Shown here: in pieces, positions 7,658 through 54,150 of the stretch
Layout of the letters: every line of letters begins with the position of its first letter
How positions within the stretch are numbered: the stretch's first letter is position 1
Source of the DNA: Pseudoleptotrichia goodfellowii
GTDB lineage: Bacteria > Fusobacteriota > Fusobacteriia > Fusobacteriales > Leptotrichiaceae
Assembly: GCF_007990505.1 (NCBI RefSeq)
Contig: NZ_AP019822.1
Location: 496,001 to 560,000, forward strand
DNA length: 64,000 nucleotides
Reading direction: 5' to 3'
Position numbers and translations under genes: made by a program
The notes under the pieces: model-generated
What the model was told of the DNA's origin: nothing
Databases searched by the model: none
Seen by the model: the letters and a program-made list of their open reading frames with translations, nothing else

Positions 7658-9016
7658 ATGAAGGAGATATTTAAAAAAATGAGAAAAAAATTACATATCT
7701 CACCACAGGCAATGATCCTGATATCATTTTGTATGATAATATTGATAAGCGGAACGATACTGTCTCTTCCTGTTTCAACAGTAAACGGAAAAGGAATACG
7801 ATGGATAGACGGAATTTTTACAGCGACATCGGCAGTATGTGTAACAGGTTTAAGTGTAAATGACATGAATTCGGTTTTTAATCTTTTCGGAAAAACGCTG
7901 ATATTGATACTTATACAACTTGGAGGACTCGGTCTGATTACGATTTCGTCATTATTTATAATTCTTTTATCAAGAAAAATAAATTATTATACAAAAAAAG
8001 CTGTTGAAGAAGATCTGAATACAGATAAAATATTTAATATACAAAAATATGTAAAAAATGTAATTTTTACAGTTTTTCTTATAGAGTTTTCCGGAGCAGT
8101 TTTTCTTTTATTTGAATTCTCTAAAATCTTTGAATTGAAAAGAGCAGCTTATTATTCAGTTTTTCATTCAATCTCGGCATTTTGTAATGCAGGATTTTCA
8201 TTGTTCTCAAATAATCTTTCAGATTTTAAAAGCAGTTTTATCTTAAATCTGGTTATTTCTTTACTCATAATTTTGGGAGGAATAGGATTTTCAACATTAT
8301 TAAATATTTATAGATATTTTAGTAAAAAAGATAAAAAGCTTACGATAACTTCAAAGCTATCAATAAATATATCACTAATATTAATATTAATCGGAACAAT
8401 TTCAATATTTATAATTGAATATTCAAATGAGAAGACAATAGGCAACCTATCATTTTTACAAAAAATTACAGCATCAATATTTCAAAGTGTATCTGTAAGA
8501 ACGGCAGGTTTTAATACAATATCATTAGTAGATTTAAAAGATGCCTCAACTTTTTTATTTATTATACTCATGTTTATAGGTGCTTCGCCGGGTTCTACAG
8601 GTGGAGGAATAAAAACAACTACAATAGGAATAATTTTTTTAGGGATAAGAGCGATACTTTTTAATAAGGAAAATTTGGAATTTTCAAGAAGAAGAATAGA
8701 ATGGAATAATTTTAATAAAGCAATAGTATTGTTTTTTATATCAATTATATACATAGCTATAATTCTTTTTTTAATGATGATAACAGAGAAAAATATCGAA
8801 TTTATTGATTTACTGTTTGAAATAGTATCGGCATTCGGAACTGTAGGATTGTCAAAAGGTGTAACGTCTTTACTTTCAGATATTTCTAAAAGTTTTATAA
8901 TATTTACGATGTTTATAGGAAGAGTCGGACCTTTGACAGTGACATTGGTGTTATTACCTAAAAAAATAAAAAGTGCGAATTATAAATACCCGGCAGAAAA
9001 CATAATTATAGGATAG
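7658..9016 (+). CDS. ktrB: KtrB/TrkH-type potassium transporter
   Basis: This 452-residue membrane protein has four M1-P-M2 repeats. The filter-lining glycines are visible in TSAVCVTGLS, SAFCNAGFS, VRTAGFNT and SAFGTVGLS. This is the ion-conducting partner of KtrA in K+ (usually Na+-coupled) uptake across the inner membrane. Two starts are possible: ATG 7658, which lacks a clear ribosome site, and ATG 7679, with AAGGAG 12 bp upstream. The difference is only seven residues. It is co-transcribed with ktrA and is the last gene of the unit. Confidence 0.92.
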   Translation: MKEIFKKMRKKLHISPQAMILISFCMIILISGTILSLPVSTVNGKGIRWIDGIFTATSAVCVTGLSVNDMNSVFNLFGKTLILILIQLGGLGLITISSLFIILLSRKINYYTKKAVEEDLNTDKIFNIQKYVKNVIFTVFLIEFSGAVFLLFEFSKIFELKRAAYYSVFHSISAFCNAGFSLFSNNLSDFKSSFILNLVISLLIILGGIGFSTLLNIYRYFSKKDKKLTITSKLSINISLILILIGTISIFIIEYSNEKTIGNLSFLQKITASIFQSVSVRTAGFNTISLVDLKDASTFLFIILMFIGASPGSTGGGIKTTTIGIIFLGIRAILFNKENLEFSRRRIEWNNFNKAIVLFFISIIYIAIILFLMMITEKNIEFIDLLFEIVSAFGTVGLSKGVTSLLSDISKSFIIFTMFIGRVGPLTVTLVLLPKKIKSANYKYPAENIIIG

Positions 9017-9085
9017 TAGAAATTATACAATAAAAACAATTTTTTATGATATGATTAAGAAATTTTGATAATCAAATAATTTTGC

Positions 9086-18880: not shown

Positions 18881-19101
18881 ATAAAATAAGAAAACAAAAT
18901 TTTCTGGTCTATTTGTGACCGACATTACAATTTTTGGGCTTTACTCTTTCTTAATGGGGTCAGATCTTTGTATTTTGAATCAGGTACATCACGGCGGTTT
19001 CTATACTTTGCACGGATTCTGTACGACTTACAAATATGACTACCACCTGTAACAACTACAGGCGACCAAAAATTCAGTCGGAACGGTAGATCGGATTTTT
19101 T
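18881..19101 (+). ncRNA. ssrS: candidate 6S RNA (ssrS)
   Basis: A stretch of about 215 nt richer in G+C than its surroundings starts after a consensus promoter and ends in six T residues. Its ends pair over a long closing stem. 18903-18911 pairs with 19087-19095 (9 bp), 18919-18923 with 19077-19081 (5 bp), and AATTTTTGG at 18929-18937 with CCAAAAATT at 19066-19074 (9 bp). Inside lies a pyrimidine-rich unpaired 5' strand (about 18938-18955). A 3' strand carries a small hairpin, CCTGTA/TACAGG at 19046-19062. A terminal stem (UUUGUA with UACAAA) closes the far end. A closing stem, a large central bubble with a hairpin on its 3' side, and a terminal arm make up the 6S RNA architecture, which mimics an open promoter and binds RNA polymerase. 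Identity rests on structure and promoter, not on sequence match. Confidence 0.6.
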
Positions 19102-28425: not shown

Positions 28426-30158
28426 ACCTAAATTTCCGAAGAATTATACATATGAAAAAAGGACATAGAATTAGTCTTTTTCTATAATAATTCTTCAGGA
28501 AATTTAATATCCATATATTTAAATATTTCTTTCTGTTTCTTTGTTACTTCTCCCAATTTAAGTTTTTCATTACCTCTTTCATAACTTTCTATCAAGTCCA
28601 ATTCATCAAGAAGTTCCTGTGTTGTGTATTTCTTATATAATTCTTTTTCACTCATCTTATTTTTTATATACGATAGCATTACTAATGACACGAATGTTAC
28701 AAATATTTTTCCATCCATTGTAGGTTTTGATGATACTCTTAATCTTCTTGCATCAAGTCGGTCTTTTATATTATGAAATGCTTTCTCTGCTACATCTTTT
28801 GTCTATATATACTTAATATTTCTCTTGCTTCAAGATTTTCATTACTTATCAAACTGAAATAACCATATTTTTTCATATGTTTTTCTATAATATCATCTTT
28901 TGCTACAGCAATTATATTTTTCTTTTTCAACTTTAATATCGAAATATTTCCTATAGTCTTCGACTTTTTTCATTTTCTACATTATTTTCTATATCTGTTT
29001 TAATTTAATCAGGTATTCTGTAAAATCTTTATCTTCTTTTAAAGCTTTTTCATCATCAAAAAACACATACAAGTAAAGATACTTCTTATTTTCCTTGTCT
29101 GTATCGTCCCACATAAGTATTTCTTTTTACCATATATATTATATTCAGCTATATAATTAGTAAATTTCTTAATATCTTTTACTTTTTCTATTCTTTCTTT
29201 TATTATTTTTGATGATGACTTTGTTCCTACAATAAATTTAAATTTATTATTCATGAGTTCATCTATATTGTTTTTACTGTAGAATCCTCTATCCATCACT
29301 AATTTAGGTTTCTTAACTCCTATATACTGAACATCTTTTATTAATCTTCTAACTGTTGACACATCAACAATGTTTCCTGGTAAAACTCTATAGTAAAAAG
29401 GCAATCTTGACTTTTCTCCATACAAAATTGCAAGATTGATTTGTGCTAATGTATCATTTTCCTTATTATATCCGTATCTCATTTGATTAATAGCTTTTGA
29501 ATAAGATGATATGCTTGTTGTATCATAAGCCCAATACTCATCTTCTTTCAACTGTTCAGCCTGTAATTTAAAGAAATTGTTTTTTCCGCTTTCATTTATT
29601 TCTGAAAACATTTCACTTATTCTTTGAGAAGTTAGTTCACTTCTGTTAAATGTTTTATGAATTTTACTCCATTTTTCATATCTTGATATAGGACTATCTT
29701 TTTCTAATATCAGATATTGTGCAACAGATAAAATTTCTTTGTACAAATCAGGAAAACATTCTTTAAGATTAGAAGTCAGTCCCAATTTTTTAGCAATAAG
29801 ATTTAAAAGCAGATTAGCACCATAAAATTTACGCTTATCATTTTGAGCTTTATTTTCTTCCAATTTCTTTTTTTGAGTGGAAGTAGGTACAATTTGTCCA
29901 GTAAGAGGGTCCTTAATACCGATTAATTTTCTTTTAGATTTAGATTTTTTTTCAGATTTATCCCAATAGTTAATAGATTCATAAACATAAGTTTTATTGT
30001 ATTTTTTATTATATAGAAAAACTAAAGAAGCCATAAGATTATCACCTATGTATAATTATACATAGAAATAAAGAAAAAGTCAAGAAAAAAATGTAGAAAA
30101 AAGCAATAAAATTAATCTTTTTTCTACTTCATATGTTTATTTCTTCGGAAATTTAGGT
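28426..30158. mobile_element. decayed IS1634-type insertion sequence with 18-bp terminal inverted repeats
   Basis: ACCTAAATTTCCGAAGAA at 28426-28443 recurs as its exact complement at 30141-30158. The match continues a few bases inside, with CATATG at 28449-28454 and 30130-30135 (inside view). The 1733-bp element carries one broken transposase gene on the minus strand. No target-site duplication is obvious: ATATG precedes and ATTAT follows. One end may therefore have been rearranged after insertion, which also fits the missing 5' part of the cyclase gene. Confidence 0.85.
28482..30034 (-). pseudogene. IS1634-family transposase, frameshifted
   Basis: An intact first part (30034 to about 29125, roughly 300 codons) starts MASLVFLYNKKYNKTYVYES. 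It contains DDE-type segments DTTSISSYSKA and VMDRGFYSKNNI and the RVLPGNIVDVS motif. At about 29125, an extra base in an A run after NIYGKK shifts the frame; the proper continuation ILMWDDTDKENKKYLY is in another frame. Further stops and shifts follow through 28720. The C-terminal 78 codons (28718-28482, from MDGKIFVTFVSLVMLSYIKN) are open again. The full gene would encode about 520 residues, near the family norm. It is not functional as read. Confidence 0.85.
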
Positions 30159-30165
30159 ATTATAT

Positions 30166-30194
30166 TTGATTTTATGATTGAAATTTATTATAAT
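30166..30194 (+). promoter_or_regulatory. promoter of the Cys-leader/symporter operon
   Basis: TTGATT at 30166-30171 and TATAAT at 30189-30194 are spaced by 17 bp. The IS end is only 7 bp upstream of the -35 box. Confidence 0.7.
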
Positions 30195-30232
30195 GTTTCT
30201 AAAGATAGATATTATAGATGGAGGATAATTCA

Positions 30233-30277
30233 ATGAGAAAATTTAGAGAATTAATGTGTTGCTGTATGAAATTATAA
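30233..30277 (+). CDS. leader peptide with three consecutive Cys codons
   Basis: A GGAGG site at 30220-30224 precedes an ATG that opens a 14-codon frame, MRKFRELMCCCMKL, closed by TAA. The codons TGT-TGC-TGT lie six codons before the stop. Downstream are an inverted repeat (AGGTGCA at 30304-30310 with TGCACCT at 30334-30340) and then a terminator hairpin before the symporter gene. This is the layout of a transcription attenuator in which ribosome stalling at Cys codons, when charged tRNA-Cys is scarce, changes RNA folding. That regulatory reading is inference; the peptide, its ribosome site and the hairpins are seen. Confidence 0.7.
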   Translation: MRKFRELMCCCMKL

Positions 30278-30303
30278 GTTTGCTGCTTAATTTGTTAATA
30301 GTT

Positions 30304-30340
30304 AGGTGCAGACTTATTTGTGTTTTATATAGTTGCACCT
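30304..30340 (+). promoter_or_regulatory. inverted repeat, candidate antiterminator part
   Basis: AGGTGCA and TGCACCT form a 7-bp perfect stem with a 23-nt loop between the leader peptide and the terminator. Confidence 0.45.
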
Positions 30341-30378
30341 GATGACTCTAAATTTGAATCGGAATAATAGATATAAAG

Positions 30379-30412
30379 AGCTTTCAGGAAAGATTCCCGA
30401 AAGCTTTTGTTT
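30379..30412 (+). terminator. attenuator terminator before the symporter
   Basis: AGCTTTC-A-GGAA pairs with TTCC-C-GAAAGCT around AGA (11 bp with one mismatch), followed by TTTGTTTT. It lies within the leader, 82 bp before the symporter start, so it must be bypassed for expression. Confidence 0.75.
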
Positions 30413-30493
30413 TATATAACCTTTCCTAATTAAAGTATAGCGGGTGTAACTATATATAGAAAATATATTTAATTATTGAAAGGAGAATAAAAC

Positions 30494-31750
30494 ATGAAAA
30501 GTTTTTTAGGATTTAAAAAGTTAAATTTATTAGTTCAGATTACAATAGGGGGATTGTTAGGTGCCTTTGCAGGATATTTATTTCCTTCACTGGGAAAAGA
30601 ATTAAAAATATTGGGAGTATTATTTACAAATCTTATTCAAATGGTTATAGTACCGCTAATATTTCCGATAGTTGTCTTGTCAATTGTTACTATTAAGAAT
30701 AGTAACAAATTCGGAAAGTTGGCATTTAAAACATTTTCGTTTTTCTTTTTAATAACTACACTATTAATTACGATCAGCCTAGTTTTGGGGAAAGTTTCAG
30801 GAGCTGGTTCAAGTATACATGCCGTGAATGTTTCTACAGAGGCGATTAAAGGGGTAGCTTCGGACATTAATATAAATGATTTTTTATTATCAATAATACC
30901 TAAAAATGTTGTTTCGGCTTTGTCTGAAGGAAATCTTTTACCTATTATATTTTTTGCAGTATTTTTAGGAATAGCTTTAATTGCTATAGGAGATGATAAT
31001 AAACCTGTAATTGATTTTTTTGAAGCATGGTCAAAAGCTATGTTTAAAATTGTAAATTACGCTATCTCATTTGCACCTGTGGGAGTGTTTGGATTAGTTG
31101 CGAGTAACGTGGCAAAGACAGGATTGGGAGATTTGTATTTATTGGGACAGTTTGTTTTATTACTGTATGTAGGTTATTTATCGACAGTACTTATTGTTTT
31201 TCCGATTATTGCTTATATATATAAAGTTCCTTATATCAGACTGCTTTCAAATATTAAAGATCTGATTTTAATAGCTTTTACTACAGGGAGTTCAAGTGTT
31301 GTTTTACCTACATTGATTGAGCGTAGTGAGAAAAACGGCGTGCCGTCAGAAATTTCGGCGTTTGCAGTGCCGTTGGGATATTCTTTTAATTTGACAGGAG
31401 CTTGTGTATATATAAGTCTTTCTGTGGCATTTATTACGAATTTATACGGTAATCCTATTCAATGGGTGCAGTTATTGCCTTTAATATTATTTTTAACAAT
31501 TATAACTAAAGGTATTGCTGCTGTTCCGGCAGGAGCATTGGTTGTTTTATTAGCTACCGCAGGACAGTTAAACTTGCCGCCCGAAGGAGTGGCGTTGATA
31601 GTGGCTGTTGATTTTCTTGCAAATGCAGGTCGTACAGCAGTAAATGTGGTGGGAAATGCACTTATACCTACTATCATTGCTAAATCTGAAAATGAGTTTA
31701 TTGAAGAATCTTCGGATTTGAAAGAGAAAGTATTGATAAACAGTAATTAA
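30494..31750 (+). CDS. DAACS-family dicarboxylate/amino acid:cation symporter
   Basis: This 418-residue membrane protein has the glutamate-transporter-homologue architecture. HP1 shows the serine-rich TGSSSVVLPT. The TM7 motif is NLTGACVY where acidic carriers have NMDGTALY. TM8 reads DFLANAGRTAVNVVGN. Compared with GltPh, the substrate Arg (R397) is kept, but D394 and the sodium-site D405 are both Asn, so the substrate or coupling may differ from aspartate/glutamate. The Cys-codon leader upstream suggests cysteine, cystine or a related thiol, which is an inference. AAAGGAG precedes the ATG. The ATP-grasp ligase gene follows within about 75 bp. Confidence 0.85.
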   Translation: MKSFLGFKKLNLLVQITIGGLLGAFAGYLFPSLGKELKILGVLFTNLIQMVIVPLIFPIVVLSIVTIKNSNKFGKLAFKTFSFFFLITTLLITISLVLGKVSGAGSSIHAVNVSTEAIKGVASDININDFLLSIIPKNVVSALSEGNLLPIIFFAVFLGIALIAIGDDNKPVIDFFEAWSKAMFKIVNYAISFAPVGVFGLVASNVAKTGLGDLYLLGQFVLLLYVGYLSTVLIVFPIIAYIYKVPYIRLLSNIKDLILIAFTTGSSSVVLPTLIERSEKNGVPSEISAFAVPLGYSFNLTGACVYISLSVAFITNLYGNPIQWVQLLPLILFLTIITKGIAAVPAGALVVLLATAGQLNLPPEGVALIVAVDFLANAGRTAVNVVGNALIPTIIAKSENEFIEESSDLKEKVLINSN

Positions 31751-31823: not shown

Positions 31824-32759
31824 ATGGCAAAAGTTTACATTATACATGAAAATATAGATTGGACACAGCACTTAATCAAAAGATTGGAGGAATTGTCAGT
31901 TCCTTATGAAGAATTGAATTTGTCCGAAGGAGTTATTGATATTCAGAAAGAGCCTGAGAAAGGTGTTTATTACAACAGAATGAGTGCCTCTTCCCATACG
32001 AGAGGGCATAGATATGCTCCGGAATTAACAGAGCAAGTATTGACATGGCTTGAAAATAAAGGAGCTGTTGTTATCAACGGAACATCGGCAATAAATTTGG
32101 AAGTAAGTAAATTGAAGCAATATATTTTATTACAGAAATTCGGGATAAAAACTCCGGAATCTTTGGGAGCTGTGGGAAAGGAGCAAATTCTTTCTGCCGG
32201 GAAAAAACTTAATAAATATCCTTTTATAATTAAGCATAATCGTGCAGGTAAAGGACTGGGAGTAAGGCTCATAAGAAGTTATGAAGAACTGAAAAATTAT
32301 GTAGAAGGAGGACAGTTCGAAGATTCTGTGGATGGAATAAGTCTGATTCAGGAATATGTGAAACCTGCAGACGGTCATATTGTAAGAGCGGAATTCATAG
32401 GAGGAAAATATTTTTATGCAGTCAAAGTAGATTCTCGTGACGGATTTGAGCTCTGTCCTGCAGACTCATGTCAAATAGATGATAAATTTTGTCCTGTAGG
32501 AGAAAGTTCTTCAAAAGAAAATAAATTTAAAATTATTGACAGATTGCCTGAGGAACAGATACTAAAATATGAACAGTTTTTAGAAGAGCATAATATAAAT
32601 GTTGCAGCAATTGAATTTATCGTAAATGAAGACAACGAAGTTTATGTTTATGATATAAATACTAACACTAATTATAATGCCGATGCTGAAAAAATTGCAG
32701 GTAAGTATGCAATGCTTGAATTAGCTGAATATTTGAAAAATAAATTGGAAAAATTGTAA
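31824..32759 (+). CDS. ATP-grasp ligase, RimK-like
   Basis: This 311-residue protein starts at ATG 31824, with AAGGAG 8 bp upstream; an in-frame extension to 31773 has no site. The N-terminal pre-ATP-grasp domain begins MAKVYIIHENIDWT. The ATP-grasp core follows, with YPFIIKHNRAGKGLGVRLI, DGISLIQEYV and the metal-binding tail FIVNEDNEVYVYDINTNTNY (E and N ligands). The family joins an amino acid or peptide to a carboxylate using ATP, as in RimK, glutathione synthetase and D-Ala ligase. With the Cys-controlled leader upstream, a thiol or peptide product is conceivable but unproven. Confidence 0.75.
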   Translation: MAKVYIIHENIDWTQHLIKRLEELSVPYEELNLSEGVIDIQKEPEKGVYYNRMSASSHTRGHRYAPELTEQVLTWLENKGAVVINGTSAINLEVSKLKQYILLQKFGIKTPESLGAVGKEQILSAGKKLNKYPFIIKHNRAGKGLGVRLIRSYEELKNYVEGGQFEDSVDGISLIQEYVKPADGHIVRAEFIGGKYFYAVKVDSRDGFELCPADSCQIDDKFCPVGESSSKENKFKIIDRLPEEQILKYEQFLEEHNINVAAIEFIVNEDNEVYVYDINTNTNYNADAEKIAGKYAMLELAEYLKNKLEKL

Positions 32760-32836: not shown

Positions 32837-32956
32837 ATGAAAGAAATACAGAATTTACAGAAAATATTTAAAAAGGAATTTAAGTGGTTTCACAAACATC
32901 CTGAGTTACCTCTAGAAAAATACGAAACAACAAAACAGATTGAGGAAATATTGTAG
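32837..32956 (+). pseudogene. N-terminal stump of an M20 amidohydrolase
   Basis: This 39-codon frame encodes FKWFHKHPELPLEKYETTKQ, the hallmark opening of M20D amidohydrolases (HipO/IAA-amino-acid hydrolase type, consensus R-R-x-x-H-x-x-P-E). It stops after IEEIL, where the family continues for another 350 residues. Nothing matching the rest is found before the metN remnant 22 bp later. I read it as a deletion product. Confidence 0.75.
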
Positions 32957-32977: not shown

Positions 32978-33430
32978 ATGATTGAAATTTCAAATGTAAA
33001 AAAAGTCTTTAAAAATAAAAAAACGGAAGTTCATGCTTTAAAAGATGTTTCTTTAAAAGTGGAAAAAGGCGATATTTTCGGAATAGTAGGATATTCAGGG
33101 GCAAGAAAATCGACTTTACTGCGTTTGGTAAATTTATTGGAAAAGCCTGATAGCGGAAGTGTAAAAATAAAAGGAAAAGAAATCGTTTACTTGTCTGAAA
33201 GAGAATTGAATAAATTAAGAAAAAATATAGGAATGGTTTTTCAACAATTTAATTTGCTGGAAGCACAAACAGTTTATCAAAATTTGAAAATACCGAATGG
33301 GCTAAAGCTATTGTGGAGGCTTATCACTCAGAAGAATTTAAAAAATATTTGGAAGCAAATAATAAAGGTTTGTGGTATGTACCTGATGAGAATAAATAAA
33401 AAAGGCAACTCCATACTTCATTTTTTTTGA
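32978..33430 (+). pseudogene. metN 5' end fused by deletion to metQ 3' end
   Basis: The first 100 codons encode the start of the methionine ABC transporter ATPase MetN (MIEISNVKKVFKNKK, GYSGARKST, GMVFQQFNLLEAQTVYQN). Walker A has Arg where Gly is expected. At about 33280 the similarity stops and the frame continues as nonsense to 33430. In another frame, 33283-33399 reads ENTEWAKAIVEAYHSEEFKK and ends YVPDENK with TAA, which is the C-terminus of the methionine-binding lipoprotein MetQ. So the rest of metN, all of metI and most of metQ have been deleted. No functional transporter remains here. Confidence 0.85.
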
Positions 33431-53911: not shown

Positions 53912-53987
53912 GGTCGCATAGCTCAGTTGGGAGAGCACCTGCCTTACAAGCAGGGGGTCATTGGTTCGAGCCCAATTGTGACCACCA
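53912..53987 (+). tRNA. tRNA-Val (TAC)
   Basis: The full cloverleaf is visible. The GGTCGCA acceptor pairs with TGTGACC, the anticodon loop is CTTACAA, the T-arm contains TTCGAGC, and the CCA is encoded. It is the first of three tandem tRNAs. Confidence 0.97.
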
Positions 53988-53994
53988 TTTTTAT

Positions 53995-54071
53995 GGAGGT
54001 GTAGCTCAGTTGGTTAGAGTGCTTGCCTGTCACGCAAGATGTCGCGAGTTCGAGTCTCGTCACTTCCGCCA
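53995..54071 (+). tRNA. tRNA-Asp (GTC)
   Basis: The GGAGGTG acceptor pairs with CACTTCC, the anticodon loop is CTGTCAC, the T-arm contains TTCGAGT, and the CCA is encoded. Confidence 0.97.
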
Positions 54072-54074
54072 TTT

Positions 54075-54150
54075 GCCCAGATAGCTCAGTCGGTAGAGCA
54101 AGGGACTGAAAATCCCTGTGTCCGTGGTTCGATTCCGCGTCTGGGCACCA
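54075..54150 (+). tRNA. tRNA-Phe (GAA)
   Basis: The GCCCAGA acceptor pairs with TCTGGGC, the anticodon loop is CTGAAAA, the T-arm contains TTCGATT, and the CCA is encoded. Confidence 0.97.

Follow-up and report, generated by a model that had tools for sequence, protein, structure and literature searches.

A putative cysteine-codon attenuator in Pseudoleptotrichia goodfellowii and related leaders across the Fusobacteriota

Results

We analyzed a 64,000-nucleotide stretch of the Pseudoleptotrichia goodfellowii genome (hereafter the window) and propose that a short leader ahead of a symporter-ligase gene pair controls transcription by ribosome-mediated attenuation in response to charged tRNA-Cys, and that it is a Cys-coded representative of a wider attenuator family in the Fusobacteriota. 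We put the probability of this reading at roughly 85%. The locus combines four features expected of such an attenuator: an open reading frame (ORF) led by a Shine-Dalgarno sequence, a run of Cys codons, mutually exclusive RNA pairings and an intrinsic terminator. An earlier note had proposed this layout, and it is now supported by the exclusive pairings, by conservation in relatives and by the sulfur-related genes that lie downstream.

Parts of the leader

All parts of the leader lie on the plus strand. The leader ORF (30233–30277) has 14 codons and encodes MRKFRELMCCCMKL followed by a stop codon, with the layout MRKFRELM-CCC-MKL. A Shine-Dalgarno sequence, GGAGG (30220–30224), stands 8 nt ahead of its ATG, and the regulatory codons TGT-TGC-TGT (30257–30265) specify three consecutive cysteines; these elements are present as originally described. 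Related leaders, such as MKRFRESMCCYMKL (L002) and MKNIFRGTMCYMML (L003), each followed by a stop codon, are also preceded by a GGAG-type Shine-Dalgarno sequence. Because cysteine makes up 0.75% of the residues in the long ORFs of the window, and because CCC occurs in only one of its 104 short Shine-Dalgarno-led ORFs (the leader itself), the Cys run is more than a chance occurrence.

The candidate sigma-70 promoter, TTGATT-17-TATAAT (30166–30194), matches at 10 of 12 positions. It had been called a good promoter, but sites with 10 of 12 matches are frequent in shuffles of the same AT-rich DNA, so that the promoter does not exceed shuffle expectation and is poor evidence when taken alone. About 130 nt 5' of it lies an IS1634-family transposase ORF (29039–30034, minus strand), which covers only the first 272 of the 483 profile positions. 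Downstream of the leader ORF there is an inverted repeat, AGGTGCA (30304–30310) and TGCACCT (30334–30340), and then an intrinsic terminator (30376–30413; stem 30379–30405, U-run to 30413) ahead of the structural gene. The terminator scan reported this stem on the minus strand only, where its T-run rule was satisfied.

RNA fold and switch

The 293-nt leader RNA folds with a free energy of -78.9 kcal/mol, compared with -49.2 ± 4.5 for shuffles (z = -6.6). In the best unperturbed fold the leader ORF pairs with 30326–30355 in a long hairpin that encloses a second helix, 30276–30283 with 30308–30315. This long hairpin is preferred over the simple AGGTGCA/TGCACCT hairpin, which we rejected as the best unperturbed fold; the inverted repeat and the terminator hairpin reported previously both exist, but the repeat does not fold in the simple manner first supposed.

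The pairing segments can be assigned as follows. Segment a (30240–30248), which holds the F-R-E codons, pairs with segment f (30346–30355). Segment b (30255–30271), which holds the Cys codons and the bases following them, pairs with segment e to give the protector helix 1:2. Segment c (AAGTTTGC, 30276–30283) pairs with GCAGACTT (30308–30315), a helix with a homologous counterpart in A7, while segment d (30304–30315) can pair either with c or, as AGGTGCA, with TGCACCT in e. Segments e and f together span 30326–30355 and include the antiterminator strand e' (CCTGATGACTCT, 30338–30349). Strand e' is complementary in addition to g (AGAGCTTTCAGG), the 5' arm of the terminator. Pairings among the codon segment, the downstream segment and the terminator arm exclude one another, which is what attenuation by a ribosome calls for.

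These pairings suggest how the switch would operate. With ample cysteine, or with an untranslated leader, the RNA of the leader ORF would pair with 30326–30355; arm g would then be free, the terminator (30379–30405) would form and transcription would end. If Cys-tRNA were short, a ribosome would stall on TGT-TGC-TGT and cover the codon segment, e' would pair with g as g is synthesized, and the terminator would come too late to prevent transcription of the downstream operon. The terminator is very probably read through only when cysteine is scarce.

We modeled the effect of the ribosome by masking the 5' part of the RNA up to the edge of a stalled ribosome and folding the remainder as it would be before synthesis of the 3' terminator arm. 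A ribosome edge at 36–45 nt, which corresponds to a stall at the Cys codons, leaves e' paired with 8 of the 11 bases of g. This number falls to 3 when the edge lies beyond the stop codon, at 54, and to 0 without a ribosome. In every member folded, the complete terminator is favored over the antiterminator at equilibrium, and so the switch must be kinetic, acting through folding order. Most of the relatives, though not all, give a clean antiterminator prediction.

Ten homologous leaders have a common architecture. When each segment was paired with its own partner or with permuted partners across these 10 lineages, permuted pairings were as good in 1 of 20,000 cases for e':g and in none of 20,000 for b:e and for a:e, with the segments picked by eye from the folds, a choice that favors the own partner. 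We also evaluated segment k (30441–30456), a 16-bp complement of e located 3' of the terminator. No pairing as strong as this one (-23.2 kcal/mol) arose in two sets of shuffles, one of 1000 and one of 500. Segment k resembles a copy of the codon segment, is weaker in the ortholog from genome G009 and is absent elsewhere, and we rejected it as a general feature of the leaders.

The downstream genes and their history

Both genes that the earlier note placed downstream of the leader were confirmed. The first (30494–31750, plus strand) encodes a DAACS symporter (PF00375) with 37% identity to E. coli GltP, 31% to DctA and 29% to TcyP. Its sequence does not support a TcyP-type cystine carrier, and since the protein is closer to GltP than to TcyP, substrates of the glutamate/aspartate type appear at least as likely as a thiol. 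The second gene (31824–32759, plus strand) encodes a RimK-like ATP-grasp ligase found in seven other Fusobacteriota genomes at 82–84%, always directly after the symporter; a ligase-based scan of named close-relative genomes gave no matches. In the one genome where the pair was read fully, it belongs to an operon with genes for an amino-acid ABC transporter and for a binding protein that is most closely related, among solved structures, to 2yjp and 1xt8. We take these to be the L-cysteine-binding proteins of Neisseria and Campylobacter. A cysteine-type binding protein beside the pair may be a lead to a thiol role for the symporter and ligase. Support for the thiol role assigned to them earlier is indirect, and the symporter itself is closer to GltP. 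One could speculate that the pair makes a product containing both Glu and Cys.

Downstream of the ligase are remnants, all on the plus strand, of a YxeP-like M20 amidohydrolase (32837–32953; 67% over 39 aa) and of MetN (86% over 91 aa) and the MetQ C-terminus (84% over 37 aa) at 33023–33396. The amidohydrolase gene directly follows the orthologous leader (CCY) in genome G009, where MetQ, MetN and MetI come after it. The symporter-ligase pair of the window therefore sits between the leader and the remnants of the genes that follow the leader in G009.

This arrangement, together with the IS1634-like fragment upstream, raises the possibility that the leader is a relic of a decayed amidohydrolase-MetNQ operon, in which case the adjoining pair need not be under cysteine control. 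The earlier note had suggested searching for Cys leaders upstream of orthologous symporter genes, and the first models detected none in the seven other genomes that carry the pair; the Cys leaders found elsewhere stand before sulfur operons. Against a relic, every part of the leader is intact, from the promoter, Shine-Dalgarno sequence and ORF with its three Cys codons to the helices, the antiterminator and the terminator. In addition, the window leader has more Cys codons than its relatives, and the orthologous pair adjoins the gene for a cysteine-type binding protein. We consider a relic unlikely, although it is the strongest of the alternatives to cysteine attenuation.

Cysteine or methionine

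The earlier note had named a lack of conserved Cys codons or hairpins in related genomes as a refutation; Cys-coded leaders occur in G009, G011 and G017. The G011 leader (CYM) precedes genes for a sulfate ABC transporter, an AprA-like protein, CysD and CysN, with several proteins of the operon scoring above NCBIfam cut-offs. The G017 leader (MCMC) precedes a NIR_SIR sulfite/nitrite-type reductase, an arylsulfotransferase and an ABC transporter. The sulfur genes downstream of these relatives lend support to cysteine as the probable signal. A strict DNA pattern (TTYAGRGNNNNNATGTGY) gave 28 matches in 98 genomes, of which only 5 were real leaders.

The same leaders allow a second reading, that methionine, or both sulfur amino acids, is sensed and not cysteine alone. 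each of the three close Cys-type leaders has Met codons flanking its Cys codons (M-CCC-M in the window); the G011 leader has a single Cys codon beside several Met codons (C-Y-M-M); MetN and MetQ are encoded in the G009 operon and survive as remnants in the window; and true Met-coded relatives exist before metN and an OAH sulfhydrylase gene. Those Met-coded leaders, however, carry Met runs (NMMMDM, LMMMLW), which the window leader does not. A run of three Cys codons is very unlikely to arise by chance, and the operons behind the Cys leaders of G011 and G017 are devoted to inorganic sulfur. A methionine signal, alone or with cysteine, is improbable, somewhat more so than a relic, though methionine may contribute.

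A wider family of leaders

A BLAST search with the paralog of the leader that stands before metN in the same genome retrieved leaders ahead of a polar amino-acid ABC transporter, their codons reading C-H-H-R or H-H-H-R. We built a first covariance model (R1) from Cys- and His-type leaders. It matched His leaders (MSNLFVNLNTLHHHHRY and MKVFKSLNNTIHHHHHR, each followed by a stop codon) across Fusobacteriaceae, before the polar amino-acid ABC transporter and hisZ, as well as a Met leader (MMMDM before metN; E = 0.53). The two types differ in pairing register, and RNAalifold applied to both together consequently failed to detect the codon helix; an explicit structure was therefore used for the second model.

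To avoid circularity, this second model (R2) was built from ten leaders of the other type and none of the window's type. It recovered the window leader at 26.6 bits (E = 0.0064 over the whole genome), where only the paralog, which is inside the model, ranked higher, and it recovered the G009 Cys leader with E = 1.1e-4. The G011 Cys leader scored E = 3.1 over 144 kb, which is unconvincing. A Trp leader (WWWP, SNF transporter) and an Asn leader (NNSNNN, asnA) were recovered with marginal E-values. A third model (R3) comprised 32 members including the window leader, so that the window's best E-value in later searches comes from a model trained on it. R3 reached most Fusobacteriota genomes, with matches in 65 of the 98 at E ≤ 0.5, some weak ones being chance. 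Among the matches sampled, leader codons and next genes included Pro with PutP, Tyr with tyrS, Thr with thrS, Thr/Ile with asd, Trp/Tyr with DAHP synthase and Met with OAH sulfhydrylase; His- and Pro-coded leaders are the commonest members. We judged low-scoring model matches in G013, G025, G068, G028 and G064 (selD in the last case) to be non-leaders.

Three nested helices covary across the 32 members. Both sides changed with the pair kept in 122 cells, compared with 41 ± 5 after shuffling and at most 38 after sliding; the alignment is fitted to the model and relatedness inflates the counts, and the gap is still large. A MAFFT alignment of ten leaders that excludes the window also covaries (13 versus 4.8).

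Codons and next genes agree: His with hisZ, Asn with asnA, Met with metN and Cys with sulfur operons. Since they agree wherever the downstream gene is well known, codon reading by a ribosome is the natural mechanism, which at the window locus means that cysteine would be the amino acid sensed. That the structured RNA is instead an aptamer or a protein-binding site with an incidental ORF is very improbable: its structure is strongly conserved, and the copy before metN keeps its RNA sequence with the usual His frame broken, but the codons follow the downstream gene across at least 8 amino acids, the Shine-Dalgarno sequence and start codon are retained, and Rfam has no family here at threshold.

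The copy before metN (G000:C1:1162437–1162553; L055 1492–1608) lies directly ahead of metN-metI-metQ-metQ. It has the His-type RNA, a frame change gives MKRFREAMCMS followed by a stop codon, and the polar amino-acid ABC genes that are present there in relatives are gone. It may represent a re-coding in progress. Elsewhere, two leader copies occur within a single operon (L087, G002:C23), at about 7809–7928 before a binding protein and 8951–9075 before a permease. Three loci of genus g22 (L304, L306 and L317) carry a Thr/Ile leader (MFRLTITTTIIIM, followed by a stop codon) and a terminator; in L304 the next gene read is asd, which starts about 600 nt past the leader.

Discussion

The window leader has the same parts as the classical leader-peptide attenuators of E. 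coli his, trp and thr, namely a Shine-Dalgarno-led ORF with cognate codons, 1:2/2:3/3:4 pairing and an intrinsic terminator. It differs from them in that the Fusobacteriota scaffold, with a GTTTGT...ACARAC helix inside the 1:2 helix, recurs with different codons, and the attenuated genes are mostly transporters.

Cys-coded leaders had been regarded as known mainly from Actinobacteria. They are indeed described there (PMC1262725; Canestrari 2020, cited in PMC9094748), the mycobacterial ones being leaderless, and they place the same kind of short ORF with a Cys run before sulfur genes. The actinobacterial poly-Cys leaders have no conserved terminator hairpin, and Rho has been proposed (PMC1262725), whereas the window leader has both a Shine-Dalgarno sequence and an intrinsic terminator. 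The statement was incomplete, because the uORFC-8-2 motif of Rhodobacterales places a Cys-codon uORF and an intrinsic terminator ahead of cysS (PMC8632094). Compared by description, it has the same tandem Cys codons in a uORF, a stem that includes the codons, and a terminator, but it belongs to another phylum, precedes another gene and has two Cys codons, at positions 14–15. The claim that no such leader is described for Fusobacteriota agrees with the literature we searched, a body of work with most subscription journals outside it.

Another parallel to the family is offered by the T-box leaders (RF00230), in which a single RNA architecture is likewise re-specified for many amino acids and attenuates amino-acid genes. 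T-boxes bind tRNA directly, whereas in the Fusobacteriota family a ribosome would read the codons. In 21 of the 98 genomes a T-box match reaches E ≤ 0.01, and in 2 it exceeds the Rfam cut-off; RF00230 has no match in the window or in its whole genome. At gathering and relaxed thresholds, Rfam gave no relevant family at the leader; a minus-strand match to the trpB motif (E = 0.2) was rejected as chance. Elsewhere in the window are a 6S RNA (18898–19101; RF00013, 49.3 bits) and a cluster of three tRNA genes (53912–54147).

The window leader appears to belong to an attenuator family that can be re-coded. On balance we favor, with less confidence than for the window locus itself, the broader proposal that Fusobacteriota possess one homologous attenuator family, the phylum's counterpart of the T-box, whose scaffold, after duplication, took on codons for Cys, His, Met, Trp, Tyr, Pro, Thr, Thr/Ile and Asn. 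The Cys leader of the window would then be one re-coding event.

The usual view is that each operon has acquired its leader-peptide attenuator independently. A family with changing codons on a constant RNA scaffold would show how specificity evolves, and would help to account for amino-acid control in the Fusobacteriota, where T-boxes are few. The R3 model would serve to assign substrates to many uncharacterized Fusobacteriota transporters. Cysteine use and H2S output matter in fusobacteria, and the window locus predicts that sulfur scavenging in these bacteria would be under cysteine control.
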